DNA from: Maylandia zebra
Lineage: Eukaryota; Chordata; Actinopteri; Cichliformes; Cichlidae
Reading direction: 5' to 3'
NCBI RefSeq assembly: GCF_041146795.1
Contig: NC_135177.1
Coordinates: forward strand, 17,752,560-17,816,559
Length of the DNA: 64,000 nt
Shown: piece by piece, positions 896 to 49,800 of the stretch
Layout of the letters: each line of letters begins with the position of its first letter
How positions within the stretch are numbered: the stretch's first letter is position 1
Made by a program: the position numbers and the translations under genes
Notes under the pieces: generated by a model
The model's input: only the letters and a program-made list of their open reading frames with translations
Database searches by the model: none
What the model was told of the DNA's origin: nothing

Positions 896-901
896 TTTAT
901 T
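896..901 (-). terminator. polyadenylation signal of the xylose isomerase gene
   Basis: Reads AATAAA on the minus strand, about 145 nt past the stop codon at 1044-1046. It is the first canonical signal after the stop, so it is the likely transcript end. Confidence 0.6.
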
Positions 902-1043: not shown

Positions 1044-4000
1044 TCATATGTAGTGGTTAAAGACGGAGTCATACTTTTCTTGCTTCCCTGATGTTACTTC
1101 TGGCTCACCGTTCTGCTTGATGAAATCCTGAAATAACAAAAAGACACATCATGTAGAGTTGCTACAAATATAAACTCCAGTTTAAATAGAAGCTCAAGCT
1201 GAGTCTTACCTCCATCTCCTCTAAGGTGGCAGTACCATTCTCCACCTTCTGTCCGAGGCCATGACTAAAGCTTGAGTACCGCTCCTGTTTAACATTACAC
1301 ATAACTTGCATTTTCCTATTAATATTATTAACGTATACTTTACACTCAAGTAGCTGCACACATACCTGCATCATACTAGCAATAACCCCATCCTCAATGA
1401 TGTGAACGGCGTTCCTGAGTCCTCTTGCAAAGGCGTCCATGACTCTGATGTGACTAATGAACAGGTCCTCGAGGTCAGTGGACTCTATGTGCGCCTTTGC
1501 AACAAAGTTCAATCCTCCTGGATGCAGGCCGCCTTGTTCAACAATCACCTGGACACACAGAGGAACGAGGAAGTTCGATTATCTCTCATCTAATGTTATT
1601 AACAGTGAAACCATTGATCTAAAAATTCATCCTTTTTCATCCAATTCATTCAAGCCAAGCTTTGTTTTAATCTAATCTAGCATCATTCTAACAGATGCTA
1701 GATTAATGATTGATTCATCTAAACTAGCCATAGTAACTCATAAAGTGCAGTTTTAGAATTTTTATTGTTTTGAGCTCACATAGATTTAGACATAAAGAGT
1801 ACATGTCATATTGTGGGGACCCAGCAATGCATAGCTAATGTTAAGTATTGACTTGTTGTCCAGTACTAATGTATTATCTGAAAAAGGCTCACTGCCAGTA
1901 ATGCACATGCCAAGCTTCAACACAGACTGCACTAGATAATCTCTGGTACTGGAAGCTTTCTGGTCATTTTCTAATAATATACTATTGTAAGTGACCAGAG
2001 TTCTGTTGACCAATCATCTTTGAGTAGGCTTTAGTTTCACACTAAACGGTCAATATGGATCGCAATCATCAGATATTCACTTGTAGCCAGGCAACACTGG
2101 AAGAGATTAAAAAAAAAACAAAACACTGGCTACTGCTCCAAGTAGCCAAATCAACAACCAACCTAATAAGCTCTCAAATTACTGTCATCTTCTGTCCAGT
2201 CTGCAACATTTACTTAGAATTTCATTTTATCAGAGGCAGGCAGACCAATTCTTTTGATGAGCATTACTGTATGCCATCTCCCAAGCACAAATCAGATTAT
2301 AAAGCTAGCAACTACCTAGCTAACAATAAACATGCCACAGCACTTAGCTGCTAAAGACTTTTTCTACACTTTCCTAATGAGGAAGGAAGAAAAGTGCCTG
2401 CCTGACAGAAATTTCCAGTCAGCAGCTAGCTAGTGAACAGAGGACTCAGCTAATAGTAATACATATTTTTACTGGACCCCAACCAACCTACACTACCTCT
2501 AAAGGAAGAGTGATCGCTGGATTTATATTTGTTGTATATTGTTGTACATGCGAGGCATCAAGAAAGTGTAACCACCTATTTAATCATTCCAACTGCTGCA
2601 GTTTACCAAATCTTGTAAATTTCACCTAAAATATAGCAAACTTAACTTATATTGACTAACATCACTTTAAATAAACCGTTATATATTTAGTTAGCTTACT
2701 TTCATGACCAAGGTGGTGTTCCTGATGTCCAGGGGGCACTGATCTGTGTCCCACCCCAGGTAAGGATAGCCTGTGTTGGAGTCAATCGATCCCAGCATCC
2801 CAAAACTGTGCACCAGCAAGCAAGAATGATTAAAAAAACAAAACAAACAAAAAGCATGAACATGCTACAAAGTTAGACTTCGGTTACTTCACAAGAGAGT
2901 GACTCACGCAGATGCCATGACAATATCGTGTCCTCCTAGAGTGGTGTGGTTGGGCTCAATTTTTAACTTAAAGTCACTGTCCAAACCAAAATGCTTTAGG
3001 AATCCTATAAGACTCATTGCATCTACAGAAAACAACAGACATAAGATGCAACACTGAAGAAGCGTATTGGCTTAGGTTACTTTATGATGAGCTTTGGAAG
3101 CCTCACCGTAATCATACTGGTGTTTGCTGGGCTCCTTTTGTTGGGGCGCAATCAGAAACTGACAACTCAACCCAATCTTCTCTTTGTAGTCTGCAGACAA
3201 ACACGCAGACATGAAACAGAACAGACACAGCTGACAAACTCAAAACTCAAAGCCTGTCTGCTGTTCACGTGCACACTTACTGACAGCCATTTTGAAGAAG
3301 ATGGCCATGTGATTGAGTTCAACAGCAACATCAGTGTTATGGATGGAGTGGAAACCTCTTCCTCCCCAAAAAACTAAAAAGCCAAAAATGTGCCGATTAA
3401 AGCGCCACTTACACAGAAGAGTCACAACATTACAAGATCGTAACCATCAAATCCATCATACCAAAGTTTTCTGCACCCAGCTTCTTGGCGATTTCCAGAC
3501 TTTTTTTCACCTGAGCACCAGCATAGGCCAGCACATGGCAGTCAGGGTTAGTGGCTGCACCATTCATGTACCTGTAGTACGATGTTTATAGACAGAAATC
3601 TGCATAACTGACTGAACCATTCATAACTTTCTGTGCTCCTGAAACTCAGGTTTAACAAAAAAAGAAAAAAGTGAGGTTTAAGGTATGACTACAGTGTTAA
3701 CCTTAAGTGAGTAAAGAGGTTACAGGTGATCCACAGCAACTTCACTCCAGTCTGGTTCTGTAGCTTGAGAGCCAGGTCTGTTATTTCATCCAGATTGCGG
3801 TTGGACTCCTCCAGCGTGGAGCCCTCAGGGGCAATGTCTCTGTCGGGGGCACAGGGCTAAGCACTCAATTTCAGAGCACCAGAATAATACAGTATACAGA
3901 TACTATTACCACTGAGTGAAAATACCCTCTTATCTCCCAGACCGTACAATTATACATAAAATTGTCGCAGAAAACATGTAGAAATAAAAGCATATGAGGT

Positions 4001-6178
4001 GATTATACTGTAGATAATCAGGGAATGTGGATAAAAATGTTCGTAATCCTCATATAGTTAATGCAATACTTTTGTTAAAACCCTTCAATTAAAACTGAAA
4101 GTCTGCACTTTAGTCACATCAGGACCTTTTCATTTTAAAATCATGATGGTAGTGTGCAGAAGCAGGTCTACAAAAATACTGGTGGCTGCCAGTGCTACCC
4201 CTCAGCCTCATCGTAGATGCACCTACAGTATAAATTAGATAATGTTAGGTCATTTTGAGAAAACCTGACCTCTGACCTTGAATTCAAGGCCACCGAGACT
4301 GAAACTCTTCTGATTGTTAGTAGATGCAGCTTTGGAATGAATGTGAAAATCCTATCTCACCTCATTCTCAAGTTATCGCATTCCCAAACTCAGATGTCCA
4401 CGCCATGTAAGAGCTGAGTTTGTGTCTGTCCATAATTGTGACATGGATGAAGTTCCAACCATATTTTGAGCCTAATCAAAGCATCCTGGTAGTTCTAAGT
4501 ATATCTGAAGAAAACTACAGCCCAGACTGCACTGGCTATTTTCATGAATTCAATGTATAACTACATGCACCCCATAAACATGGTACATTATGTTCTTCTA
4601 CATTCCACCAGAACTTTTTCAGGTCAGGGTGAAATCAAGATAACTTCAGCTTTCTTACCTGTCATGGAAAGTGTAATATTTTACCTGTGAAAACAAACAG
4701 ACGTCAATGAGGAATTATACTGTGATCTGGTCAGCTCTGAGATATTAAAAGCCTCACTCCAAGCTTGGTGAAAAACTCAAAGACTGCACAGAGTCGCTTC
4801 CTGGCTGATTTCATAGGAGACCCTTTATTCCAGAGCCGGTGGTGGGTTGGAACTCCAAAAGGACCGGCACCTACCAAACAGAAAACAAGGCAATATTACA
4901 AAGGAGATGTGCTGATCTGAGAAAAGTAAAACTGTATGTGTGCATGAGTCAAAGCCTGCGGGACACATTTGTAACCATCGACCTTCAGACTGTTTAATGA
5001 GTTGCACGAGTGTTGGCTAAATCGCAACATTACCCGGTCCACAGAAAGAGTGCCAGTAGCAGACTGAAAACCTCAACCAGTCCTCCATCGTCCTCCCCAT
5101 CAGCACCTGCACACAGGAACACCGAGCTCCACACAGCCTTACACAACTCTAACTGTGCAGTCAAAACCATGACACAAACAGAGTTAGGTCAGCATGTTAT
5201 TGTATTAACCTCCTGAGTGGCCCCGGAGCAAAAATGTACAGCTGACATTATGGTTTTTTCCAATATCAAACTAAGACGACTAAAAACATCTGCATAGATA
5301 AAGCAGTTTAGGTTGTACTGTGCAGTTAATTGGATTTTGAAACAGTGTGTCCTGGAGCATGCCATTATTAATGTCGCACTTTAATAACAAACAAGAAATA
5401 ATTACATCAAATTCCAATTATTTGCCCACTTTGGTTTTCTACCCCTGAGTCTGCTTGACATATCTGTGTGTGTGTGTGAGTGTGTGTGTGTCTCTCACCT
5501 ACCTCTTCTGCACTGTAGTGTTTAAAACACATGACATCACCAGGTCCAGCATCGGGTTTATACTGGATTTTGGGAATTCCTGTGCAACATGTTTTTTAAT
5601 ATTTGTTTTAAAACATCCTAAGGAGTGACAGCTCTTTCAATATTAACTTTGGAAAGACCAGCCTGAGGATAAAAAGGCTCACAGATTTAGTTACTGCCAT
5701 CAAATCACATGTAAAACACATTTTACAGACTTGTTTTTACATGATTCCATTTTATCTTTTATCTTCTTGTTATCATATTTCAGTTACCTTTCTTATTGCC
5801 TGCATCTAACCTTTCATTGATTTATTTACATTTTTAATTGTTTTTTTCTTTTTTAATAATCTGTGTGCAGGCATCGTCTATTTGTTTAAATTGTTCCCTG
5901 TGAGTATTCCTTTTGTCTGTTTGCCAAAGTACTTTGTGATCTCTGTTCTGGTAGTTCATTATTATTATTATTCATCTTGGGAAGATGGGAAGAAATACAT
6001 TTTTAAACAAGTTATTTAACTCAGAGTGAAGATCATATAAGAGTGGTAAAAGACCACAGACTGCAGCAGGACACTAAGCTTTAAGGTCTATAAACCCTTT
6101 TGGCCTCCCTCCCTCACACACACTTTACCGTTTCAAAAATCTCTGTTTACCTGCAAAGAACTTCTCCTGCGCTGCCAT
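1044..6178 (-). CDS. xylose isomerase family protein, 14 exons, predicted pseudoenzyme
   Basis: Fourteen minus-strand exons in consistent phase join into 434 residues, the usual class II xylose isomerase length (about 440). Exons: 6151-6178, 5503-5579, 5034-5106, 4758-4870, 4659-4684, 3702-3839, 3462-3571, 3281-3373, 3107-3190, 2908-3022, 2700-2805, 1366-1548, 1210-1284, 1044-1127. Family blocks seen in order: [12 protein letters not shown] (res. ~45-56), [11 protein letters not shown] with His104/Asp107, [10 protein letters not shown] (~153), FWGGRG (~190), KHQYDY (~243), IEPNHTTL with Glu270/His273, GSID with Asp294, GWDTDQ with Asp305/Asp307, and GGLNF (~332). Such enzymes interconvert aldose and ketose sugars on a two-metal centre. 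Here the metal-1 Glu (family motif IEPKP) is Ala234, the catalytic Lys two residues on is Gln236, and the last metal-1 Asp (family NFDAK) is Val337. Metal-2 ligands remain. Four residues are missing after His279. The start ATG at 6176-6178 opens exon 1 without an earlier in-frame ATG. Family assignment is certain; loss of catalysis is inferred. Confidence 0.93.
5465..5491. repeat. (GT)n microsatellite
   Basis: Short, slightly interrupted GT run lying in xylose isomerase intron 2, about 12 nt beyond the exon 2 donor at 5503. Confidence 0.7.
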
Positions 6179-6767: not shown

Positions 6768-7475
6768 CTTAATACACTGCAACGGCTGCACAGCAGCCAG
6801 TGGGTTCCCATCTTTTTGACACTGGTCCCATTCCAGAATCTTTAAGATAAAATATTTATAAAGTATGAGTTTTTATTCTTATGTAATAAAATTACTTAAT
6901 GGCGTTTTCTCTGAAAATCAATCAATCTAGCAACAGTACTTGATATGGATGTCTTAAAATCTCTGCCAGGTCTACAGGTTATTAATGTAATTACTTAAAC
7001 ATATTTATTTCTATTTTGCTAATGTACTGTTTGTCTTTTAGTTGCTAATAAAAAAATTGCTGATTTTAAACACTATTTAACTACAACACAAACAGTTAAT
7101 ACATACCCAATTTTTAATGTCAACCGTCATACTAAACCAGTAAAATCCGGAACACACTGCTGCTAGCGTTTTCTGTATGCCAGTGTGTCCTCCTATTGGA
7201 CATGAATGAAACTCATGAAAGATCCTCCTGGCATCGTCCATGGTTTTAACTACTCTTCTGGTTCCAAAAAAAGAGTTCTCCATCTACAGAAAAAAAACTA
7301 TTTACAATGTATTTAATCAAATATGTGATTTGTTAATATTAACAAAAAATTACTGACCATTCAGTTTGAATTTTGAGGCATATCTTCTGAGGTTTTGCCT
7401 CTGAGCCTTGTCATATTCTGAAGGGTAGGACCCAGCAGAAAGTAACGAGTATATCTCTTCCCATTTCTTCTCCAT
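6768..7475 (-). pseudogene. decayed integrase zinc-binding (KRBA2/SCAND3-like) gene
   Basis: Three minus-strand exons (7358-7475, 7107-7283, 6768-6839) encode a short N-terminal helix beginning MEKKWEEIY, then an integrase H2C2-type zinc-binding domain: HEFHS, IGGHTGIQKT, a YW-x-M-x-D block and a terminal CQKDG. This domain occurs in retrotransposon integrases and in host genes derived from them. Two defects are visible. Exon 2 joined to exon 1 needs a frame change at a run of seven T (7268-7274 region). The first cysteine of the final zinc pair is Trp (EWDQC instead of a Cys pair). Splice sites are otherwise intact, and no catalytic integrase core follows. It could be a young pseudogene, a sequencing slip in the homopolymer, or a truncated domesticated gene. 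Confidence 0.6.
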
Positions 7476-7886
7476 ATCTACAAACGTAAACAGACATTTT
7501 CTTTTGAGCTTCAATATGTGCAGCAAACAATGCATACAATTTAACCTATTAAATAACCACATTACCTAAGTAGACTTAACAGAATATAACGGTCTTATCA
7601 CTCAGCAAGAATGCACTGCAAACTTTCTAACTTTCTAGATAACATCATATGTGTACAAGCTTAAATCATGACTTGAAACTAGACTTAACCGAAGCTGCAA
7701 ATTCGATAATTTTGTGGAAAACGCAGACAGCACGTTCACTTTAAAATTAACAAACATTCACAATGGCTTAAAAAAACCAAGTATCCACGGCAATAAAGTA
7801 TCAATACTTACCTATTTTCCAAATATCAAAAACGTAGCATGAAATTACAGGCGGACGCTATCCCTGAAAATTCCGGTTTTGTGTTG
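7476..7886. other. 5' flank of the integrase-like gene
   Basis: No coding exon is seen. The stretch holds the presumed 5' UTR or first intron leading to the promoter-like sequence at 7887. Confidence 0.4.
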
Positions 7887-10863: not shown

Positions 10864-11170
10864 GGGGCGATCATGGCTCAAGAGTTGGGAGTTCGCCTTG
10901 TAATCAGAAGGTTGCTGGTTTGAGCCCCAGCTTGGACAGTCTCGGTCGTTGTGTCCTTGGGCAAGACACGTCACCCGTTGCCTACTGGTGGTGTTCAGAG
11001 GGCCCGGTGGCGCCAGTGTCTAGCAGCCTCGCCTCTGTCAGTGTGCCCCAGGGTGGTTGCCATCACCAGTGTGTGAATGTGTGTGTGAGTGGGTGGATGA
11101 CTGGTTGTGTAAAGCACTTTGGGCCCCCTTAGGGACTAGAAAAGCGCTATACAAATACAGACCATTTACC
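10864..11170 (+). mobile_element. AFC-type tRNA-derived SINE, copy 1
   Basis: Begins GGGGCGATCATGGCTCAAG and contains a pol III B-box-like GGTTTGAGCCCC. It ends with the GCGCTATACAAATACAG tail typical of SINEs that borrow a LINE 3' end. It is closely similar to 35698-36010 in the same orientation. I recognise it as the African cichlid AFC family. Its last ~100 bp are also present in the second copy of the long direct repeat. Confidence 0.75.
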
Positions 11171-12657
11171 AAACGATCTACCTGCTGAGCTGTTGCCTCC
11201 TAGTGGTGCTTGTTTTGCGCCTTTAGATGATCACACAAAGAAAGCAGCAGTGCAGAAGAATGAGTCTCAGTTTACAGCAGTTGTGACAGATGATAATTGA
11301 GGCAAAGCATTTTGTGTTTATTTATAGCTTGCATGTGCACAAATAAGTACTGGAATAACAAGCAGCTGCTTTTCCTGTTTAATTAATTTTCAAGATTAAT
11401 TAAGAGAAATGAACTCTGCAACACAATACCATGAAGTTTTGTGCAGCATAACAGTTTCTGAAGTAGCAATGTCGTTGCAAGTGTGTCAGTGCGTCGGTAT
11501 AATCTTATGGGCATATAATCTGTCGTTATATTCACAAGAATGTTGTGTCTTGTGTGAAAAATTACACTACCTAGTGGACACTAGAGGAATAAAAAATAAT
11601 TGGCAGAGAAGCAATGCAATGGTCACATGTGTCTGTGTGCTGCAGTCAGCAATAAAGTTATGCTGCCACCACGGTCTGCTTCTTATAAACACCAGAAACA
11701 CTACATCTGTTTTTCCTTACTGTGCGCTCAACTTGTCAATCAGACAAAAAATAGAAAAACAAAAAAGCATCTCTGCTTCGTACAAAGACATCCATTTATC
11801 AAGTCTGCAGACTGTCCTAAAAGTTGTTTTTATACTTACAAGAAAATCTGTCTACTAAAGAGAAAAATCAGGTTTTCATGTTAAACAATAAATTTTATTC
11901 TCAGGATCCACTGTTTGCCTCTGACTGACTAACATATTTCCTTTATATACGCAGTCTAATCTTTTTAAATGATTATTTGCCTTCTTTCTGCTCGGTTTCT
12001 CTGACACCACATCAAATGGATCCAACTCTGTCTTGACATCATTAGACTTTTGTCTATCCTCCGTAGCTCTTCTTTCTCAGCCTTTGCTTTAATCTTGTGA
12101 AAAAAATGTCCTTCCCCATGCTATTGTTTCCCCATCAGTTTATGCCTAATAATCAAAAACATCAAGTGACTCCTCTCTGTGGGTTCGCCTCTGACCACAG
12201 ACCCCCCCCAATCATATGACATTAACAGCAAACTGTCTTTCTACATCTCTTGTTGGTCTTGTGACGTGGAAATGTTCTGCCTGAAATGCCCACTTAGCTT
12301 CTCAGACTGAACTGAGTGCAGTTTCTTGTTCACACACAGGGTGCCACTGAAATCCCTTTGAAGGTAACCTGTTTAGCCTCTGCTACATTTACCTCGGTCT
12401 TTGGGTCGACCCTGAACTGCCCGCACATTTATACGCCGCTAAACTCACTTTATTACTCCCTGTGCTGTTTTCTAATTCTAGTTGGGTCTTTGTAGCAAAT
12501 TCTTCTATCTAAGGTTAGAGTGGGGTGACCTGTGATCTTCACACTCACCTTCATTTTGAGTGCCATGGATGTTGGAGTGGTTTTGTCCACTCCAACATTT
12601 GTGACTCCTACTTCCAAGTCAGTCGCTGTTTCTCCTAGCTCCTAGCTTTGCTTTTGT
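11073..12657. repeat. long direct repeat, left copy (L1 target duplication)
   Basis: This 1585-bp segment recurs at 15774-17357. The parts compared are identical except for a C-run of eight against seven near 12213. It starts inside the SINE and stops exactly at the poly-T edge of the L1. The contained 149-codon open frame (11409-11858) is identical in both copies, but I see no family match or gene structure. Confidence 0.9.
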
Positions 12658-15773: not shown

Positions 15774-17357
15774 GTGAATGTGTGTGTGAGTGGGTGGATG
15801 ACTGGTTGTGTAAAGCACTTTGGGCCCCCTTAGGGACTAGAAAAGCGCTATACAAATACAGACCATTTACCAAACGATCTACCTGCTGAGCTGTTGCCTC
15901 CTAGTGGTGCTTGTTTTGCGCCTTTAGATGATCACACAAAGAAAGCAGCAGTGCAGAAGAATGAGTCTCAGTTTACAGCAGTTGTGACAGATGATAATTG
16001 AGGCAAAGCATTTTGTGTTTATTTATAGCTTGCATGTGCACAAATAAGTACTGGAATAACAAGCAGCTGCTTTTCCTGTTTAATTAATTTTCAAGATTAA
16101 TTAAGAGAAATGAACTCTGCAACACAATACCATGAAGTTTTGTGCAGCATAACAGTTTCTGAAGTAGCAATGTCGTTGCAAGTGTGTCAGTGCGTCGGTA
16201 TAATCTTATGGGCATATAATCTGTCGTTATATTCACAAGAATGTTGTGTCTTGTGTGAAAAATTACACTACCTAGTGGACACTAGAGGAATAAAAAATAA
16301 TTGGCAGAGAAGCAATGCAATGGTCACATGTGTCTGTGTGCTGCAGTCAGCAATAAAGTTATGCTGCCACCACGGTCTGCTTCTTATAAACACCAGAAAC
16401 ACTACATCTGTTTTTCCTTACTGTGCGCTCAACTTGTCAATCAGACAAAAAATAGAAAAACAAAAAAGCATCTCTGCTTCGTACAAAGACATCCATTTAT
16501 CAAGTCTGCAGACTGTCCTAAAAGTTGTTTTTATACTTACAAGAAAATCTGTCTACTAAAGAGAAAAATCAGGTTTTCATGTTAAACAATAAATTTTATT
16601 CTCAGGATCCACTGTTTGCCTCTGACTGACTAACATATTTCCTTTATATACGCAGTCTAATCTTTTTAAATGATTATTTGCCTTCTTTCTGCTCGGTTTC
16701 TCTGACACCACATCAAATGGATCCAACTCTGTCTTGACATCATTAGACTTTTGTCTATCCTCCGTAGCTCTTCTTTCTCAGCCTTTGCTTTAATCTTGTG
16801 AAAAAAATGTCCTTCCCCATGCTATTGTTTCCCCATCAGTTTATGCCTAATAATCAAAAACATCAAGTGACTCCTCTCTGTGGGTTCGCCTCTGACCACA
16901 GACCCCCCCAATCATATGACATTAACAGCAAACTGTCTTTCTACATCTCTTGTTGGTCTTGTGACGTGGAAATGTTCTGCCTGAAATGCCCACTTAGCTT
17001 CTCAGACTGAACTGAGTGCAGTTTCTTGTTCACACACAGGGTGCCACTGAAATCCCTTTGAAGGTAACCTGTTTAGCCTCTGCTACATTTACCTCGGTCT
17101 TTGGGTCGACCCTGAACTGCCCGCACATTTATACGCCGCTAAACTCACTTTATTACTCCCTGTGCTGTTTTCTAATTCTAGTTGGGTCTTTGTAGCAAAT
17201 TCTTCTATCTAAGGTTAGAGTGGGGTGACCTGTGATCTTCACACTCACCTTCATTTTGAGTGCCATGGATGTTGGAGTGGTTTTGTCCACTCCAACATTT
17301 GTGACTCCTACTTCCAAGTCAGTCGCTGTTTCTCCTAGCTCCTAGCTTTGCTTTTGT
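15774..17357. repeat. long direct repeat, right copy
   Basis: Second copy of 11073-12657, beginning immediately at the truncated 5' end of the L1 and ending at CTTTTGT before unique sequence. It carries only the last part of the SINE (to about 15880), whereas the left copy continues into the complete SINE. This shows that the left side is the original locus. Confidence 0.9.
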
Positions 17358-19090: not shown

Positions 19091-22000
19091 CTATGATGTG
19101 GAGGTGTCTGACTGGCTGAGGTCCTTCTTGCTCTTGTTCTTCTTCTTCTTCTTGTCCCCTTTGCAGGGCTTGCAAACACAGCACAGGATGCAGGGCGAGG
19201 CCAGCAGGAGGAGAGGTGACGTCACCAGCACAATGATACTGACTCCCACCAGGATCCCCACCACCTGAGCAGAGACACAGCAATAAATACTGTAATTACT
19301 CTTCTTATTAGCACTGGGTCAAATGACTGTGTCAAAGGACTTGGTCATAATGGCATCAGAGATTCATCATCTGACTCTCCCTACAGAAGTTGTTCAGTTC
19401 CCTGTTTTGGTTTTATAGTTTGTAACTTTACTGTCTTCATTTTCTGTTTAGATTCAGTTCTGGTGCAAACCTTCTTTACATCACCTACCCAGCAATAAAC
19501 ATTCGGAAAACATTAACAGGCAGCTGGTAAACACAACTGAACTTTTGGGAACTATGGAGACTTAAAAAAAATGAAATTAATGAAAGTGAACTTACATTTA
19601 CCAGCAAGACAGAACCAGGACTTCAACTGTCAAGAAAAGCGACTAAAGAACTCAGTCGCTTTTCGAATACTAGGGCTTGCTGTGTGGCTTATGAGTGTAT
19701 TTTGCTAACTAAGCTTGCTAACTTTGCCGATAACGTAACACTCGTTAATTCACATTAAGTTCACTTTTGACCCCATAAAACCAACCTGGTGGCGGCTAAA
19801 ATGCAACGCTGAAGTTTCAAAGTGTGAAGCCTAAAAGAAACGAATGATGTTGTTTTAACAAAGTTCCTCTTTTATATACAGTCTGTAGTTTTAAATTACT
19901 GTAACTGTTAAAACCTGATAGACTTTATTCATGTTAAATTGTTAAATCATTCATTCAGTAAACTTGATACACATACCATTATATGAATAATCCCTGTATG
20001 TGTAAACAAATAAGGCACACATATATATTTACATATCTTCGTGGACTTCCTGGTTTTCTGTTTCCCTTTGACAACACTCCCATGCACAAGCTGAGGTCCG
20101 TGGAGACATGTTTTGGAGTGAAAAGGCATGGCCTCCACTTAATCAGATACAGCACATTTGAGATGAACAGGAATGCCAAACTGTGACTCAATCTTTATCA
20201 GTCAACCTCAGCAGCTTACCTCAATAATTCTTTGGATGACTGTATGCTGCCGTAGCAGGGCAGACAGTAATAGCTGTGGTAGTGGATGTGACATGTTAAA
20301 TAACCACAGATACATGTCATATACCGATGTCAACATTGTTTTGGATATGTAGTTACACTAAGGGTCGGCAAAAAACATCGCAGGTTAAATCTAACAGACT
20401 CAAGTACTTAAATGCAGCGGTGGAAAAATAATTTAAGGTGAACATACTTAGAGGACCTGTTAGGCAAGGGTGTAACCAGCTCTATAATGAGTTGTTTTGC
20501 ACGAAACAACTTCGCTGCTGTACTTCAGCTCTTCACATACTTAGCGACCTGTACACACCGAGACGCAATCTGGAGATCCCAAGCAAACTTATCATGTGAT
20601 AATGGCATTAGAGGAGGAGAAAGCAGAAGGAAAGTAGGTCTGGTGGGCAGTTGTAATCTTTTTGTTGCATAGTTGGTGTCGTTATGGGCCAGGAATTTGA
20701 GATTAGCTTAGGGATTTGCTGAGTTTAAAGGATTTCTTCAATGAACTGTGGGAAAACAAGAAGTCGTAAACAGCAAACTATGTGAGGCTTTAATATTCTT
20801 AAAGTGATATATAGTAATAAACCAAGCAGCTGATAAACTGAAAGACAGTAATTATGTCCCATGTCTCATGGTGATTGAGAGCTGGGTTGAAGTCCAAAAT
20901 CCAGGTTATGTGCTGGTATGATTTGACTCAAATCCAGTCCCTGTATACAACAACCAGGTGGTTCTGTGGTCTAATCCATTCAGACAATAACAACATCACA
21001 AAATGCCACGCACTGCTGCCTTACAACTGGGCTCACCTGCGTTCTGTTCCACATAACCGAGGCCCTGGAGTGTCCCAGCTTGTTTCTGCATGGCCCCTTA
21101 TCATAATGTCTCAAAAAGATATCACCCTGCATTTAAACACAACATACACATGCATGCAAAGACGTGAACAGGTGACTATGCAGCAAAGGAAATATTCCAT
21201 TTGAATTTGGAAAAAAAGAAAGAAAAAAAGAAAAATGCATCACAGCTATTGTTTAGTTAGCAGGGGAGACTTACATCCAGATTCTGCAGACAGTACCAGC
21301 AGAAGGTGTGTTTGCAGCTTTTACACAGCATCTGTGCACAGCCTTGGTTTCTCTCGATGTAGATACCACACATAGGACACTGCTTGATGGGCATGTCAGA
21401 GTCACTGTCTGAGCGTGTCCTGTGAATTGGAACAAAGGCACACACGAGGAATGCCGTTAATGCCGCGAGGCCCTCCAGGCAGTGCGTGCAATCTTTATTT
21501 AGAGGCAAAGGTGAAGGGTTGTTATTCAATGTAAAGTGGGAAGCAGAGTCTTGAAGTTATGGTTAAGAGTTTACAAATACATATTTCTCAAGGCCGTTTC
21601 TTTAAACGCGCTAAAGGTAACATCTCTCTCATTCTAGATGTCATGCAGCCCTCAAAAAACCCTGTTTTTGATTAATACGAGATAGCAGAAGCTATCGCAG
21701 CTCATGTGATGTCAGAAAATAATACTGCAAAAAACACAAACAACAAATCTGCTCAAAAACACAAAGTCAGCAGGAGACAGAGACCAGTTCCTTGTTTTAA
21801 AAGAGGAAATTGAGCATTGTTTTGGGAAATAAAACTATAAGATATAAGATAAAATGCAAATGTAAAAACTACTGAAAGCCTCTGCAGGCTGAAAACCCCC
21901 CAGATATTATGCTGCCACGTTTGACTCAAAAGTGGATTTTAACTCATCTTTCTCATCCCCAGCGCAGGGATCATCACTTCACTGCTGTACAGTGAGGTAA

Positions 22001-25000
22001 TTGGATCGGTGCCCATCCTCCTCCTCCTCTGTTTGGCACAGAGACAATGGAATTCCGATATAACTCAGTGACTCCCCAGTGACATCAGTCAGTCTGGCAG
22101 AGTCACAGCTCAGCGCAGCGCAGTAATGTCCCTGCTCAACTGGGACGCTTCTGAGGCACACTAAGTTATTAATCCTGAAATAATGTTTTTATAGAGCAAA
22201 GGGTTTCTACAGAGAGATGAGGAGCTACCCATCACTTATGTGATTCATTCAGTGTGCTGTGAACATCCTACACCGGTGAAAGTTAGGTCTTTTATGTCAA
22301 AGGAAAGTCTGGGATTTTCCTCATGGTGTAAAACACCACAATTGAAAATAAATGTAATCCACGTAATGTCAGAGAAAAATTCATCTGCCTCTGTCATTTC
22401 ATCACATGCATGGCAACTGATTTGTGCAATCATGCATTGCTCACCAGTTTGGTTACAGCAAGTCTATCTCAGTGTCCTGACCTAATACCCTCCTCCAGCT
22501 TTTAGCCCAGTATCATTTCCAAAGTGCAGCTCTGTGGCTGCAGGCAGTGGGCAGCGGACCAAGAGGCTGGCTTTACTGACCTGCTTTGATGAGAAGGCGT
22601 CATCATGGCCTGCCGCTCGGGGCAAGCGTGGCCATCCTGCCAGGGCCCTCTGCAGCCGGAGCAGAAGACGGTGTGACAGGTCGGGCAGGGCACAGCGGCG
22701 GGGTGGCCTTCGGTGCTCTGCTCCACATTACACACAGCCTGACATTCAAGCACCGGGCACCAGGCTTTACTGGGGTCAAGCTTCACTCCTGTGGAGAGGA
22801 AAAGAACGGATGAGGCACATAGTCAAGATTTTCCCTTTCTGAAGAAAATGAGCGTGACGTGTCGCAGACAAAACAAAAGCAATCACTGTGAGCTGACTCA
22901 AACCCTTTACACTCCCAGCACATGCTTTCACTATGAATCATAACAAAAGGGACAACTGTAGTAAGACCGACTGCACTTTGCACTTTTTTGTTCTTACAAT
23001 AACACGAGTTTTATGATTTATGGACGGAGTAAACAATAACTGTTATTGGATTTGCAGTGTATTATTGCTGTGCAAATAGAAAATGTCAATATAGCTGCAC
23101 AGCAAACTACCCCTTTGTTTGCAGCTTATAAATGTCAACAGTGTTTCCCACAGAGGTGCTGTTTGCCTTCACAAACATTTACCTAACCAGTAGTACACAA
23201 TTTATCTCCACTGAGAATCTCTTTTCTTCAGATTAACAGATTATTAACATGGGTGTCTTATAGTAGTAACCCCTTTATTGTTTGATAGCTAGAATTTAAG
23301 TAACCTCTAGGCTAAAACTGTACCAGAATTAAACAGAACACAAAAAAAGCCTCACAATATGCCAGGCATGTTAAGATAAATACTGGCTGGGACTGTTTGT
23401 GTGACCTGCCTGTCATCAGACAATAGCATGTAAACACAACAGTGCTTACCTCTCTCAAACTTGAGACGCAGATACAGCTCCACCTGACCTGCTGCTGCCA
23501 AAGCAGCTATCTGCAATCACACAGAGGTACTTCAATTATTTTACTGACTCAGATTTTATGATGCAGATTTCAGAGATGTGGAAAAAACAGCACTTTGGAT
23601 ACTAGACTTCCTGAAGCTTGTGATAACATGTTCAAAACCAAAATCTTTCATGGTGCTCTAGATAAAAATGAGGTTGTTTACCATCATAGTTGACAATCTG
23701 ACGCTTCAAGTCATCTGCAATTTGCAGCATTATTTTCTAAAACTCATAAGCTGTTAAAAATGACACACTTTGCAGTATTTTCCAGAAAAACACTACTAAA
23801 GGATGGACTTCCTAGCACAAGAGTCTTAATAAAGTTGTATTCTGATTAGCAGAAGATTAAGGAAGGGGCACTTTTCATGTGGTTTTGAGTCAGCATTTTC
23901 AGCCTCCCCACTGAAACGTTTACTATGTATTGTTTTAATGTTTCCATCTGACGTCATTTCATTTATAGCGATTCACTCCTGAAACCAAAACTAGTTTCTT
24001 CAGAACTGTGATTAAGGGTGGATGTGCAGTATTTACACAATTTACACACTGTAAAAAGACAAGCGTGAAAGTCCAGCTTCCTATTTCTTGAGAAGTACGG
24101 CAATGGCCTTTATGTCTGAAACCAAACCGGTTGAACCACCAACCTGGGACATTCGAGGAATGTGCAACAACAAAAACGCAGATCACTGATCATGTTTGCA
24201 TTTTATCTCCTCTCATCATTTTTTCTGCTATGTGCATTGTTGCACAGGCCGTACCTCTGAGTCCAGCAGCACTCCAGTCTTTCGGCACGCCATGTCGGGG
24301 CAGGTGATTGGTGCCCCCCCACCCTCCATTATGGCTAGCTGAACATACTGCTGCAAACACTGGAGAGGGAAGAAGGACAATAGGGCATTAGACTGGACGT
24401 TTAATCAGACAGGGAGAACTGTCATATGCTCGCCAGCAGCATTTTATCTGAAACAAGTGCAGGAGCTCAGAGAGCCACAATGTTACTCAGGACGAAATGA
24501 AAGGAAGATGTTGGGTTAAACCGGGCAGCTGAAATGTCACAGATAGAGAGCTTCCTCACGAGTGCTCACAGAGTCAAAAGTCATGTGTTGCCCAAGCCAT
24601 GACATTGAGTAAGGCAGGAGAAACTGTGGAAGCACTGTTCATAAAAGCAGTGCTGTTTTCAAAAATTAAAGTTAAAAAATTCTTTAAAGAAGAAAAACTT
24701 TTGCATGAGCACAAACCTGTGCTTCCTGTGTGAATACAGCCCTAACACAGCATGAAGCACTGATCACACAAACAGAGCTGGAACAACACCAGGAACACGG
24801 TGTGCTCTTTAAGCAGACAGAAGGAGATGGTTCACATTTTTATACTAAAGATAAGTACGTGTTTCAGTATCAATTTCCCTCGCTGTGTCGTACCCTGCGC
24901 ATGTACGTGAGGTTTATCTGTGCGACCTTGTGCGTGCTGCTCTGACAAATGCAGCGAGCTTGGAAAGAGATTAACACCTGCCACTATCTGGCTCCGTTTT

Positions 25001-37507: not shown

Positions 37508-40500
37508 CATATAGTATATACACTGGGTGAATGTGCAGTAGTAGCAGCAAGCAGGTGAATTCTGTACATTAATATGAATAGACATCTGACTATTTTACAG
37601 GATAGACAATATAAACATATTTAAAATTAAAGGAATTGAAATGTACATTGTTCCTTGGTTTAGTGTCTGGAAGAGTCCTGTCTCAGTCAATTATAGATGA
37701 TGTGAGAGGGCGGGTGTGTGTGTTTAGGGCACGGATGGCTTGGGGATAGAAGCTCCTCTTGAGTCTCTCTGTCCTTGCCCGGAAGATGCGGAACCTTCTA
37801 CCAGATTGCAGAAGTTGGAACAGTTTGCTGCCAGGATGGGACGGGTCCTTCAGTATCTGCGCTGCTCTAGTCCGGCATCTCCTGGTGTAGGTGTCCTGAA
37901 GCGGGGGGAGAGCAATCCTGCAGCAGCGTTCTGCTGTACGGATCACTCTCTGGAGAGCTTTTTGGTCCTTCACACAGCTGTTCCCAAACCACGATGTCAT
38001 GTTCTGTGTGAGGATGCTCTCCACAGCGCCTGTATAGAAAATCCTGAGGATCTTTGGAGAGACCCTGAACTTCCTCAGTTGTCGTAGGTGATAGAGCTGG
38101 GCGATATATCGAGTTTTTAAAACATATCGATATATTTTTATACGAGATATAAGATGTGACAATATCCTTTATATCGATATAGTCTATGTTACGTTATAAT
38201 TATAGTTGTGGAGCCGCAAGTTTGCCTCTCTTTCGTCCACTTTTGTCTCTACACAACGTTACTCCGCCTCGCCTTCACTGAAGACAACTCCCCCTCCTCC
38301 CCCATCGCTTCACGTGCAGGCAGCGACAAGACGGACACGGCAAATCTCCGTTAACGAGTTACTGCGCATCGCCCCATGCGTGGGGCTGGACGGCGTCAAC
38401 GTGCTAACGAGCTAAACATGCTAACGAGCTAACAGCGCTAACCCTAAAATCCTTTCATTCTCTCAAAAGTTGATAGCGCGCCTTATGTATGAATTCTGGT
38501 TGTGCTTGATGGCCGCGAACCGATTTTATGTGGTACACGGCGCTCAGCAATCTGTCAAAAATGTTTGAGTACGACTTTGGTAAGCTACGGAGCTGCACCG
38601 CTTGATAGATTGTCGGCGCATTACGGCTACCGAGGAGCTTCGCGGAGTGATACGTACTGTGCATCAACGTAATATTACCGTATTGTGTGTGTATAAGGAC
38701 CATAAATGGCACCTGTAAGAGAGGTGGTTATGAAGCGGATTTCAAACTCCAGGCTATCAGTCACACAGTAAAACTTGGGAACAGAGCAGCTGTGAAATCT
38801 GTCTTTGTTATTACGCTCAGTGTCTTTTAGTTTACATTTTGACTGCACAATTGTGAGCTCTTTGTTTAGCACAAAAACAACCTTGTTTTCTTTTATTTAT
38901 GGAGCATTATTATTTAATGAATTCTCATAATTTAATTTTGAGTAATTTTTCATGTACATCTGTGCTGTATGTTAATAAAAGTGCCTGTGTGACATCTGGG
39001 ACACAGCTTTGACTAAGAACTCTCTTTTTGTTCTTACTTTATGGCTTAAAAAAAAAAATCGAGATATATATCTTATATCGCCATCCAGCTAAAAAATATC
39101 GAGATATGAATTTTGGGTCATATCGCCCAGCCCTAGTAGGTGATACAGGCGCTGCCTAGCCTTTTTGGTCTGGACCTGAATGTGGGCAGTCCATGTCAGG
39201 TCTGAGGAGATGTGGACACCAAGATACTTGAAGGACTGCACCCTCTCCACTGGCGCTCCATTGATGATGATGGGCTTGTAGTCTCTGTGCTGACCCCTTC
39301 TGAAGTCCACCACCAGCTCCTTGGTCTTGCTGACGTTCAGCTGGAGGTGGTTGTCCTGGCACCACGATGCCAGATTCTTCACTTCATCCATGTAGGCCGC
39401 CTCATCGTTGTTGGAGATGGCACCCAACACCACTGTGTCGTCAGCAAACTTCACAATGGTGTTGGAGCCATGGGTGGCCACACAGTCTGAAGTGTAGAGG
39501 GAGTAGAGCAGTGGCGAGAGGACACATCCCTGAGGGGCTCCTGTGTTGATGGTGATGCTGTTGGAGAAGCACCTGCCCACCCTCACCACCTGAGTTCTGC
39601 CAGTGAGGAAGTCCAACACCCATGCACACAGACGGCTGTTAAGTCCCAGATCCCTCAGCTTTGTGAACAGTCTGCAGGGCACTATTGTGTTAAACGCTGA
39701 ACTGTAATCAACAAACAGCATTCGCACATAGTTACCCTGTTTCTTGTCCACGTGGCTGAGAGTGGTGTGTAGGACGTGGGCGATGGCATCCTCTGTGGAT
39801 CTGTCGGATCTGTAGGCGAACTGCAGCGGATCTGTGGTGTCTGGGATGGAGGAGGAGATGATGTTCTTCAGCAGCCTCTCAAACACCTTCATTACTACCG
39901 AGGTCAGTGCAACTGGCCGGTAATCGTTCAGGGATGAGGGGTTGCTGTTCTTGGGCACAGGGATGATGGTGGATCTTTTGAAGCATGTGGGGACCACAGA
40001 CTTCGCCAGGGACTCGTTGAAGATGTAAGTGAACACACCTGCTAGCTGGTCAGCACAGCAGCGCAGCAGACGGCCGGTGATGCCGTCTGGCCCCGCCGCT
40101 TTCCTTGTGTTCACTCTCCTCAGTGCCGCTCGGACGTCATGCTCCGCGATGCTGGTCACCGGTCTCTCGCTGATGACGTCACTGTCCTCGGTAGTCAGGC
40201 GGTAGATAGCATTAGCCGCCTGGCTAACCTCGAAACGGCCGTAGAACCGATTCAGCTTGTTGGTGAATGCAGAGTCGGCGTTGATCGGCGCAGTGTCCCT
40301 GGCTTTGTAGTCCGTAATGGTGCGTAGTCCGTGCCACATACTCCGTGTGTCGCCCTGGTGGAAGCGGGACTCCACACGTTCCCGGTACCTGCGTTTGGCA
40401 TCTCTCACCGCGCGCCGCACGCCGTATGATGCCGCTTTGTAGGCGCTCATATCGCCAGTGGCGAGACCCGCGTTGTAGGAGGCGGTCCTGGCGTTTACTG

Positions 40501-43192
40501 CAGTGCGGATCGATCTGTCCATCCACGGTTTCTGGTTTGGGAATGTGGTGACTCTCGCAGTGGGGATAATCTCCTCCGCTAGCATATTGACGAAGCATAC
40601 TGCTACTTCCGTAAACTCGTTGATGTCGACTGCGCATGCTCTGAACATGTCCCAGTCTACGTCGTTGAGTGCGTCCTGTAGCGTAGCTTCTGATTGGGCA
40701 GTCCACCGTTTTACCTCCCTCTTGGTCACGTCTTCCCTCCGTATGCTTTGTTTATACTGGGGAATGAGGAAGATGGCGTTGTGGTCAGACTTCCCAAAAG
40801 CCGGGTGTGAGACAGCTTTGTAGCCCTGCTTGTATGGCGTGTAGCAGTGATCCAAAATCCGATCCCCTCTCGTTGGACACGAGACATGCTGGTAAAAGTT
40901 TGGCATGACTTGTCTGAGGTTCGCTTTGTTAAAGTCTCCTGCTACAATGAGGGCTGCTCCCGGGTCCTTGTTTTGAAGCGAGCTCAGCACATCATGTAAT
41001 TCGGACAAAGCCATACCTGTGTCCGCTTGGGGTGGGATGTAGACCGCCGTGGCGATGACTGAGGTGAACTCACGGGGCAGATAGAAAGGGCGGCACTTAA
41101 TGCTCAGGAACTCCAGATGTGGCGAGCAGCCGCTGGAGAGAGTAGAAATGCTCCTGACATCACACCACTTTCTGTTTATCATGAAACACACTCCCCCACC
41201 TTTGGTTTTGTTCGACTCTGCCGTTCTGTCCGCGCGGAGCACAAAGAATGAATCCGACGGAGTTACGGCCTGGTCCGGCACGGTGGGGGTCAGCCATGTC
41301 TCCGTGAAGCACAGAATGTTGCAGTCCCTCATGTCACGTTGGAAGGTGACCCTTGCTCTTAGGTCATCGAGCTTGTTCTCCATGGATTGTACATTGGCCA
41401 GTAGGATACTGGGCAGTGGTGCGCGATGCGCCTGCTGTCTCAGTCTGTTCCTAATACCAGCGCGTTTTCCCCGGCGCTTCTTTGTTCTGTGCCTCGGATG
41501 AGCGGCCCGTCCTTTGTTGTTCTCCGCGCCGCGTAGAATCTCTGGCGGCCAGGAAGGGTCAGGATTAAAAGTGTCCAAGATTAGATGTGCAACCTTGGCA
41601 CCGATGTTTACAAGTGATCCGCTGTCGTATACTATAAGACTAGAGGATTTTGGGATGTAAACCAGAGCAAAAAATAGGTAAAAAACAAGAAAAGTGGATA
41701 GTCGGAGCGGAGCGGTCAGGAAGGCATCTGGACGTGGCCGCGTGTTGGTTTAGTTAAATCTCCTGATGGCTTATGAATCCAATCACATGGCGAATTCAAG
41801 TTATTCAAGCTGCTTTAGCCTTGACACAGTTCATCTCAAAGCTGCTTTGCAACCCAACTCCGCCGCCGCGTCTCTCTGTGATAGTATTTCTGACTTTATC
41901 TATAACAAATGTCATATTTGTTGTCATCGATGCCTACCCTGTTCTGTGCTAGCGACTTCCTTGTGCTCTCCATGGATACAGATAAAATACCAGGGAAAAA
42001 ATTACAGCAGATGGAAATCTTCTTTTGAATAGCGAGCGATCTCAAGTGAACTGCTCCAAAGCTAATTTAATTAATTTCAATTTAGTTTTATTTATGTAGC
42101 ACCAAATCCCAACACAGTTGTCTGAAGGTGCTTTATACAGTATGGTAAAGACCCCACAATAATACAGAGAAAACCCCAACAACTACATGACCGCCCATGA
42201 GCACGCACTTGGCAAAAGTGGGAAGGAAAAACTCCTTTTTGAAGTACAGCCTCTAAGCCACACAGCTGCACAACGCTGCATATAGTATTACTTCACCAAC
42301 CTCATGCTGCTTCAGCAGGAATTTCTGAGACTCCTCGTGAACTCTCACCTCCTCCTTCAACTGTTTCTTCAGCAGCTGAGACAGGATGAGCCAATGAAGG
42401 TGATTATTTAGTCATTAAACATTTGACTTTAAATCTAAAATGTAGAGCCGAGCGTGTCTTATATTTGGACCTACCTCCAGCTGCCCTTCCAGCAGTGCCT
42501 CAGCCTGACTGGTCTCACTCTGGATCTTCCTGAGCTGCAGCCCAGTGTCGTTCTCCTTAATGTTCTCTTTGCTTCTCATCTTTAACAAATGATCTTTCTT
42601 GTTTGCTTCATGGTGTATGACCTGCAGATACAGGTCCGGATGGAGACCAAGTAGTGGGATTACTGAACTCTTATTTTTTCGACCCTTACAGCTATTCATT
42701 CACAGTTGTTCCCTATGGGTCAGTTTCTTACCTGCAGTTTGAGAGTTTTCTGTTGGAGCTCCTCTTGTTGTTTCAGAAGAGTCTGTCTTCTCTTGTCCAC
42801 TTGTTTCATTTCCTCCCTGAAAGGAGAGTGACTTACATTATAGATGCTGATTATTTCTCCATGTGTTTTTTCTCCTTGTCCTCTATTTAGAACACCCCCT
42901 TCTTTTTTACCACCAAGGTCAGGATTACTGGCAAATCATTCAAAGAAGAACCTTTTCATGTTCGTATCCCTTCTCCTCTGCTCGACTTCCTCCACAGCCT
43001 GCAGCAGAGAGCTAAAACACTGTTTCTCCTCCAGCTCCAAATGTAGCTTGGACATCAGCTGTGAGATGTATTCACTGCAGTGAGATGAATTATTGAGAAT
43101 AAATAATGGCTTTGTTTATTTGTTTGTTTTCAGTGTGTTCTGTGCTTCTTACCAATCCCTTGTCAACTTCCTGAGCTTGGCTTTCTCCTGCA

Positions 43193-46809: not shown

Positions 46810-49800
46810 TCAGATTTCACTGATTGTTCGTTCAGAGGGATGGTACTCCTCCCTATCTTTAGGGGAGGACATGTAGAATGACTGTGTCTTGCGTTTTAAG
46901 CGAGCCCTCTTGGTGGCCAGTGACAGACTGTGTTTGCTGGAGGCGATTATGTCACAGATGAACTTCTTGCAGTCCACACAGACCTCCATGGTAGCCCAGT
47001 CCTCCGTCAGCTCTGGGGGAAGCTCCAGTTCTTCATGAGACTTTAAAGAGCCGTGCTTCGAAAACCTACAGAGACAGAAACAGCAGAGGAGCTCGGCTTG
47101 AACGGGAGCGAAACACAACATTGTTTTGATATATTAACAATGTGAATTAGCTTTGGTTTCAAATTATCTAAAATGTGCATTCATAGCTAACTTAATCCAT
47201 GGGATATCAATTAAATGTGTTTAAAAACAAAAAAACACATGAAACAACTCATCCTGAAAAGACTTAATGAAAAGTTCAGTCATGCATGATAATACAGGTA
47301 AATTAAATCCAAACTTCATGATTGTCTTGCTGCTTTTCTGATAAGGACGCTGAATAATTTGGTAAAGTTTGACAATCAGCCAAGCAGTTTCTGATGTGGT
47401 AGTTGCAATTTTATCCACTAGATGTCAGCAACACCCAACAAATCTTCTGACTGAAGAGGACACGCTGTACCAAGCAGTAGTAGCTACAATGAACAAGGCC
47501 TTTACTTTGCATTGTGTGTGCAGTTTGTGATGACGAACACGAGATGTATGATCTCCTCCTTTTGATTATTGCACTGCTATTTCTAGTTTGAATAGTGTTG
47601 TTCATAGCTCTTACTTAGACATAGTCTTCTGGATGCTGTGGCGCTGTGGGTTACTGGAGGACTTGTCAGTTTTAGCAGCTGCTGCTGTTGTCGCTGCCCC
47701 AGGAGCTTTTCTGGGACCTTTAGATGCTCCTTTTGCAGGTTCTTTCAAAGCGGGGGATGCAGCAGCCCCTCCTGGTTTAGATGGACCTGGGGCTCCAGCC
47801 ACTGACAGTCCTTGTCCTACAGAAGCCATGGCACTTATTCTCTCCCTGGGGAGAGTGTTGGTGGAGCCAATGGAGTAGATGGGCAAGCTGGAATAAGGTT
47901 TGGATGGCAGCCGCATCTGTCAGAGATGGAAGGCATGTATGAAAGAGATAAAACTTCCTCACAATGCGTATGGAAGCACAGTAATGATGCAAAACAAGAG
48001 AGAAGAGTGTCGTCAGTTTGAATTTGGTTGATTGGGAAGCAATTAGCCAAAGATCAGTGACCACCATTTGCCACATTAGGAAGTATCTTACACTATTTAC
48101 TTATTTATTTTAAAGAGGTCCACTTTATTGTCACCAGCACAAAGATGTGATACTGCAGAAGAGGACTTATTTATCCCACGTGCCTTACCTTTTTGCAGCA
48201 CTGTGCGCACACAGGCCTGCAAAGAGACGATTGACAGAAGTTACAGGAGAAGGAATAAACGAAAGCAGCCATAGATCCTTAAATAATTATAAACAGAAGA
48301 GTATTAATGAAAAAGATGAAGATAATCATCTGAAATTGTTTACTTTTTGCAGAACTGGCAGGTGTAGGACCAGGTGAAGAAGGAAAACCTTTTGGCTCGA
48401 CAACAGAAGCAAAGCTGCAACAGAAATATAGAGATCGCAGTAAATATAAAGAAGGTATTTGGAACCAAAAAAACATTTTTCTCAGGATAAAAGTTATACT
48501 GTTTCCCTAACCCACTTATGGTGTTATAATTTAACTGTGCTCATTTAGAAAGAGTAAGTAATCCCTGTTTATTAAAGAGAGATTACTTCTTTATAATAGA
48601 ATTAGCCTAGGCAATAAAAAGATGTATTACCTTCCCCTTCTTCATGGCATTGTAGATGTCTTTGTACTGCTGGAACTTCTCCAGCTCTGCCTTCACCAGC
48701 ACCTGTCTGATGTGCATCACTTCCTCCACCGTCAGAGACAGACACTCCACAGGAAAACAAAACTCCTCCTGCAGCAACAACAAGAATTATACGCACAGCA
48801 GTCAGTGGACCCAGCAGACTCAAAACACAGGACTCAGTGTTTTTCATTCAGCATACACATGCACAACTCTCCTGCACCTTTAAGAGCACTGAGAGTGGGT
48901 CCAGGCTACAATTGGGTCATAAAAATATCCTCATTGTTCAGTGAAAGAAACGGCAGCTCAGAGTAGAATCGTGATGTGGGAAAAACAGTGAACACTTTTT
49001 TCCTGCAGCAGTGCCGAGAAATAGTGTTCACAAAGCGTGCAATGATTGTCTTCAAGAACTGGCTAAAAAAAGAGAATTTCTTTTTATATTTGTTATCCAG
49101 CTGGAAGCAGCCATCAGAACATGATACACTCATAAGGGCATAAGGGATGGACATGGTCAGCAACAATACTCAGGCAGGCTGTGGCATTAAAACAATGCTC
49201 AGTTGGTCCTAAGGGGCAAAATGTGTGCCAAGAAAATATCCCCCAAACCATTACACCCTCAGCAGGCTTAAGTATTTATACAGACATTGTGGCAGCAGAA
49301 ACAGAAACTCGTCAGACCATGCGCCGTTTTTCCAACCTGTTCTTCTATTGTGCAATCTTGGTGAGCCAGTGTGAATTGGGCCCTCAGTTTCCTGTTCTTA
49401 GCCCATAGGAGGGGCACCTAATGTGGTCTTGACCATGTCTACATGGAACTCAAGGAACAAAGAGAGCAATATTAAATAAGGGGAACTCCTAGATGACTGT
49501 GGTTTTATTGTAAGGGGAGGCTGTATATGTTTGTAGCCACAAGGTGTGTTTGTCTGCTACTCAGGGCATCCTCAGGGCCTTTGTAACAGTCGCACATTAT
49601 GAATCCTTGATTGACTGCTGAAGGACAAGTTAACGCACCGTGGTTCTTCCCATTTCTCTCTGTTACCAGAAACACAGAGGAGAGGAAACTTCAAATTCAC
49701 TTTTTAGTGTTCAGAAACATGAAAAAAAGAGATCTTTGATCCTATGTTCGTCTTTCCTGTTACTTCCTGTAAACGCTCTGACAGTTCTTTGTTAGTTCTA

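Follow-up and report, generated by a model that had tools for sequence, protein, structure and literature searches.

Loss of Catalytic Residues in an Intact Xylose Isomerase Family Gene of the Cichlid Maylandia zebra

Results

Gene Structure and Family Membership

A stretch of 64,000 nucleotides of the Maylandia zebra genome (assembly GCF_041146795.1, contig NC_135177.1, positions 17,752,560 to 17,816,559; the whole stretch is called the window here, and positions are counted within it) carried on its minus strand, from 6178 down to 1044, a gene for a relative of xylose isomerase. Fourteen exons, each found once on that strand, joined to a frame of 1305 nucleotides including the stop codon, which encoded 434 amino acids with no internal stop, and GT-AG borders were present at all 13 introns. 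The spliced frame started in exon 1 (6151..6178), ran through exons 2 (5503..5579), 7 (3462..3571) and 13 (1210..1284), as well as through the nine exons given below with the active-site residues that they encode, and reached its stop codon in exon 14 (1044..1127). A candidate polyadenylation signal, identified solely by a match to the pattern AATAAA, lay on the same strand at 896..901, 142 bases past the stop codon. The lost introns, stops and frameshifts of a pseudogene were absent, as the gene displayed 13 introns, an open frame and canonical splice sites. These introns ruled out bacterial contamination. GC content at third codon positions of the coding exons was 0.556 vs. 0.37 for GC content in the introns, and the neighbourhood of the gene is animal in character.

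The protein scored 566 bits against the NCBIfam equivalog profile for xylose isomerase, TIGR02630 (cut-off 533.25 bits), with residues 7-434 covering profile positions 1-435. Judged by its sequence, it is a member of the xylose isomerase family by descent. Among the 45 distinct Protein Data Bank sequences that it matched, identity to the best five solved enzymes (1a0e, 1a0d, 4xkm, 1a0c, and 6int) was 46-49%. These five, which we take to be class II xylose isomerases, have in common with the fish protein the full length, the metal-2 ligands, the His/Asp pair and the aromatic pocket, whereas the Glu and Asp of metal site 1, the catalytic Lys and an active-site Asn are replaced in the fish, which also presents gaps of one and four amino acids at invariant motifs.

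For a broader comparison, a scan of GTDB genomes with the alignment gave at least 593 candidate stretches, at least 582 of them relatives, from which the 80 most similar to the fish protein were retained. The scan patterns span two stretches, the FHD motif and a segment whose last residue is Trp191, and invariance at residues 103-107 and 183-191 is therefore partly due to selection of the sequences; the four changed columns discussed below (234, 236, 268, and 337) fall outside both stretches. Fisher tests, mean identities and a first count of lost columns were calculated on 78 of the 80 rows, since a filter for the FHD and DTD motifs dropped two sequences (L035 and L039, both reading WHD). The fish protein was on average 47.5% identical to these 78 relatives (best 50.8%), as compared to a mean of 57.1% for the bacteria among themselves. 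Scans of genome contigs with the fish protein alone gave 25 pattern matches and no relatives, and scans of viral contigs gave 39 pattern matches and no relatives. In the tree, the end branch of the fish protein (1.64 vs. a median of 0.23) was the sole one flagged as long, and its placement was not resolved; for these reasons we did not name a bacterial donor of the gene.

Active-Site Residues Lost and Kept

A passage of PMC8070043 gives, in Streptomyces rubiginosus numbering, Glu181, Glu217, Asp245, and Asp287 as ligands of metal 1 and Glu217, His220, Asp255, and Asp257 as ligands of metal 2; the alignment of the fish protein to 1mnz_A ends at fish residue 294, which corresponds to chain position 245 and hence to the metal-1 ligand Asp245. 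The remaining equivalences to this numbering were inferred from conserved motifs and near-constant offsets. The names used for the pocket residues and for the Asn215 equivalent are those that we assume to apply.

Two of the four metal-1 ligands were kept (Glu270 and Asp294) and two were replaced, Glu by Ala234 and Asp by Val337, so that the four-ligand site of an enzyme of class EC 5.3.1.5 was incomplete. The equivalent of the catalytic Lys183 was Gln236, and Lys268 stood in the place of an invariant Asn two residues before the bridging Glu270. The columns of Ala234 and Gln236 (exon 9, 3107..3190), Lys268 (exon 10, 2908..3022), and Val337 (exon 12, 1366..1548) read Glu, Lys, Asn, and Asp, respectively, in all 80 bacterial relatives. 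Further replacements were Gln237 for Pro in exon 9, His341-Ile342 for Arg-Arg in exon 12, and Gly62 for Asp in exon 4 (4758..4870). A one-residue gap in the GGREG motif (exon 8, 3281..3373) and a four-residue gap after Gly278 (exon 10) each deleted one near-invariant residue.

Metal site 2 was complete, its ligands Glu270 and His273 (exon 10) and Asp305 and Asp307 (exon 11, 2700..2805) being the same in 80/80 bacteria. The ring-opening pair was likewise present, with His104 encoded in exon 5 (4659..4684) and Asp107 in exon 6 (3702..3839), both matching 80/80 sequences. The same agreement was obtained for Trp53 (exon 3, 5034..5106), Phe64 (exon 4), Thr144 and Phe148 (exon 6), Trp191 (exon 8), and Asp294 (exon 11), and Lys339 (exon 12) matched 79/80. 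An earlier note on this DNA, made from the letters alone, had described 14 exons splicing in phase to 434 residues, the substitutions Ala234, Gln236, and Val337, and the retention of the metal-2 ligands, Asp294 and the His104/Asp107 pair; all of this was borne out by the intact frame and the bacterial comparison, to which Lys268, the changes at 62, 237, and 341-342 and the two gaps are added here.

Extent of the Divergence

We defined as near-invariant those columns with at least 97% identity among the bacteria, which gave 99 columns. The fish protein lacked 19 of them (17 substituted and two in gaps), and the recount on all 80 rows, made without the motif filter, again gave 19/99. In leave-one-out counts no bacterial sequence lost more than four near-invariant columns, and 44 of the 80 lost none. 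Losses were enriched in the set formed by the four metal-1 ligands and the equivalents of Lys183 and Asn215 (4/6 vs. 15/93; Fisher P = 0.012), a value to be taken only as a guide because these six residues were assembled after the changes had been seen. No enrichment was found for the four metal-1 ligands alone (2/4 vs. 17/95; P = 0.17), and a strong enrichment across the whole active site was rejected (4/17 vs. 15/82; P = 0.74). On the alignment, these last two comparisons point to divergence spread widely over the protein, the metal-1 corner being one part of it, rather than to a surgical removal of one site. The selective loss of metal site 1 that had been proposed earlier is therefore only partly borne out, by the set chosen afterward with the Lys and the Asn included, but not by the four ligands alone or by the active site as a whole.

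Simulation of Neutral Decay

Neutral decay was simulated from the present fish sequence, with transitions making up half of the substitutions, ratios of insertions and deletions (indels) of 0.05 or 0.12, 80% of indels shifting the frame, and 52 splice-site bases; 97 of the 99 near-invariant columns were used, the two in the fish gaps being left out. By the time that 17 of the 97 codons had changed, decay had introduced about 3.5 stops, 4.5 or 10.7 frameshifts (depending on the indel ratio) and 4 splice-site hits. None of 400 simulated genes was intact at 17 changes with either indel ratio, nor was any of 400 at 10 changes. At four changes, 44/400 (indel ratio 0.05) and 16/400 (0.12) were still intact. 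The intact state of the gene in spite of 19 lost near-invariant columns, taken together with the absence of intact runs at 17 changes, suggests that selection on the protein is still acting, provided that most of the 17 changes postdate the loss of catalysis. The in-frame state of the two gaps was dropped as evidence of selection because gaps in an open frame, when aligned as protein, are always of this kind.

Surroundings of the Gene in the Window

No second copy or alternative exon was seen in the window. The best of 213 tblastn matches lying outside the exons had an E value of 0.21, and a search of the six frames for five canonical motifs found none of them elsewhere in the window.

Short open stretches at 6780-7480 on the minus strand look to us like a zinc-binding integrase piece, presumably. 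Direct repeats of about 1.58 kb extended from 11073 to 12657 and from 15774 to 17357, identical where checked except for a one-base shift near 12200; they flank a GC-rich block of about 3.1 kb, an arrangement suggestive of a recent insertion or duplication. IBR (half RING) domains were present in two frames, at 21260-21556 and at 22505-22822 minus, both probably belonging to a gene for a ubiquitin ligase of the RING-between-RING type. A frame of 886 codons (39089-41749 minus) that matched reverse transcriptase and, weakly, endonuclease corresponded to a LINE-type element, and downstream of it a frame of 161 codons (37686-38168 minus) matched Pfam ALKBH8_N, a domain common in LINE-type elements. 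Exon-like frames at 46813-58240 minus are taken by us to belong to a SPIRE actin-nucleation gene; a Pfam search of four of these SPIRE-like frames gave no match, and the frame at 57941-58240 minus had a weak Protein Data Bank match to an entry named N-WASP (E 0.0005).

Discussion

Consequences for Catalysis and Sugar Binding

In the passage of PMC8070043 that describes the xylitol complex, O1 is contacted by Lys183 and His220, O2 by Glu181, Glu217, and Asp287, O3 by Asp287, O4 by Glu181, Asp245, and Asp287, and O5 by His54. At three of these seven contacting positions (the equivalents of Glu181, Lys183, and Asp287) the fish protein has another residue. According to the calculations reported in a passage of PMC4030948, Lys183 acts as proton donor after the hydride shift. 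With two metal-1 ligands and the equivalents of Lys183 and the Asn replaced, canonical isomerisation by the fish protein would be very unlikely. The claim in the earlier note of a pseudoenzyme is thus well supported as far as loss of the isomerase reaction is concerned, since the residues replaced (the Asn apart) have roles toward metal, sugar or protons. The same three missing contacts make ordinary sugar binding doubtful; sugar binding in the usual mode was consequently rejected as the likely role, and the suggestion of such a role in that note is weakened.

A Family Member Maintained without Isomerase Chemistry

Our preferred interpretation, to which we give a probability of roughly 0.6, is that the gene encodes a vertebrate xylose isomerase family member from which isomerase chemistry has been lost and which is still maintained as a protein. 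Metal 1 would no longer be bound. Lys268 lies two residues before Glu270 on what is presumably the same strand, and by the alternation of side chains along a beta-strand both would face the barrel interior, where the amino group of Lys268 may occupy the place of metal 1. The outcome would be a barrel with one metal or none, probably tetrameric like other family members, which would be incapable of the hydride shift and would serve in binding, structure or regulation.

A passage of PMC3666897, citing Allen 1994, states that Lys in place of a metal-ligand Glu of xylose isomerase fills the place of the metal without significant distortion. As described there, that mutant resembles the fish protein in that a metal site is removed and a nearby Lys is supplied; it differs in being laboratory-made and in carrying the Lys at the Glu position, whereas in the fish the Glu is changed to Ala and the Lys stands at the Asn position, with a geometry that we infer. 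The PHP domain of E. coli DNA polymerase III has also lost metal ligands, and Arg, the commonest replacement at six of nine metal positions, is seen as a stand-in for the metal in the same passage of PMC3666897; this domain belongs to another family and lies inside a polymerase, unlike the fish protein.

As the ring-opening pair and the metal-2 ligands are kept, some leftover ring opening by the fish protein is possible, but a role in binding, structure or regulation is no less likely. The laboratory Lys-for-Glu metal-1 mutant is said to have kept part of its ring-opening activity with no isomerisation. We regard as quite unlikely the bolder proposal of an ancient fish xylose isomerase in which Lys268 has replaced metal 1, a natural counterpart of that mutant, and which teleosts in general have conserved for sensing sugars or opening their rings.

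Several points weigh against a maintained protein without isomerase chemistry. The evidence comes from one genome and hence is no proof of conservation, and some of the 17 changes could be normal features of animal xylose isomerases. If only the four active-site changes were neutral, the 44/400 or 16/400 simulated genes that stayed intact make a recent loss conceivable. Accounts differ on what Asp287 does chemically: in a passage of PMC11194214 this residue deprotonates the C-2 hydroxyl, whereas in PMC4030948, in the part on this step, a metal-bound water and not Asp287 takes the O2 proton; its role in metal binding is not in dispute. Finally, the support from Arctic charr presented below is an annotation name.

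Alternative Explanations

The alternative that survives best, although we still hold it unlikely, is a recently inactivated gene in which catalysis was lost in the lineage and the open frame has yet to decay. It agrees with the intact genes that the simulation left at four neutral active-site changes and with the long fish branch, as relaxed constraint would give, and it is opposed by the 19 near-invariant columns lost and the lack of any intact neutral gene at 17 substitutions.

A lower probability still, and in our view a small one, goes to a one-metal enzyme with other chemistry (for example ring opening of sugars, in the sense of anomer exchange, without isomerisation) or with a new substrate. 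The retention of His104, Asp107, all metal-2 ligands, Lys339 and the aromatic pocket fits such an enzyme, and according to the part of PMC7733943 that deals with the superfamily, its enzymes bind from one to three metals and new functions are represented among them, CbiR being an example. However, the changed xylitol contacts include those to O1, O2, O3, and O4, so that the usual substrate would bind poorly, and one sequence does not suffice to point out a new catalytic group.

An error of sequencing or assembly, or a wrong gene model, is hardly credible despite the basis in one genome, as the changes are spread over exons 9, 10, and 12 in well-aligned stretches with canonical splice sites and the window offers no alternative exon or motif. 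Just as improbable is a weak xylose isomerase with a shifted metal site, for which the two remaining metal-1 ligands speak and against which stands the loss of the Lys183 and Asp287 equivalents.

Chordate Relatives and Significance

The enzyme of Ciona intestinalis appears, in a passage of PMC5591498, among distantly related xylose isomerases that can be functionally expressed in yeast. It is thus a chordate member of the family like the fish protein, but a functional one by that account, and catalysis was probably lost later, in vertebrates or fishes. A table of PMC5007756 contains an Arctic charr transcript that bears the name xylose isomerase as its annotation, and this entry suggests both presence and expression of the gene in a second group of fishes. 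PMC8537960 was discarded as a source on vertebrates or animals because the phrase searched for occurred in it only within a reference about an archaeon. No paper about this vertebrate protein turned up in our literature search, in which nine papers containing the phrase went unread and most subscription journals lay outside the coverage, and we make no claim that the protein is unpublished.

Because the curated cut-off is passed, a profile search of the usual kind would name the fish protein a xylose isomerase even though residues required by the reaction are missing. If the loss proves common among fishes, the gene would represent a vertebrate pseudoenzyme whose origin is a textbook metalloenzyme, to be compared with its reportedly functional tunicate relative, and it would show to what uses the sugar isomerase barrel can be put after catalysis has gone.

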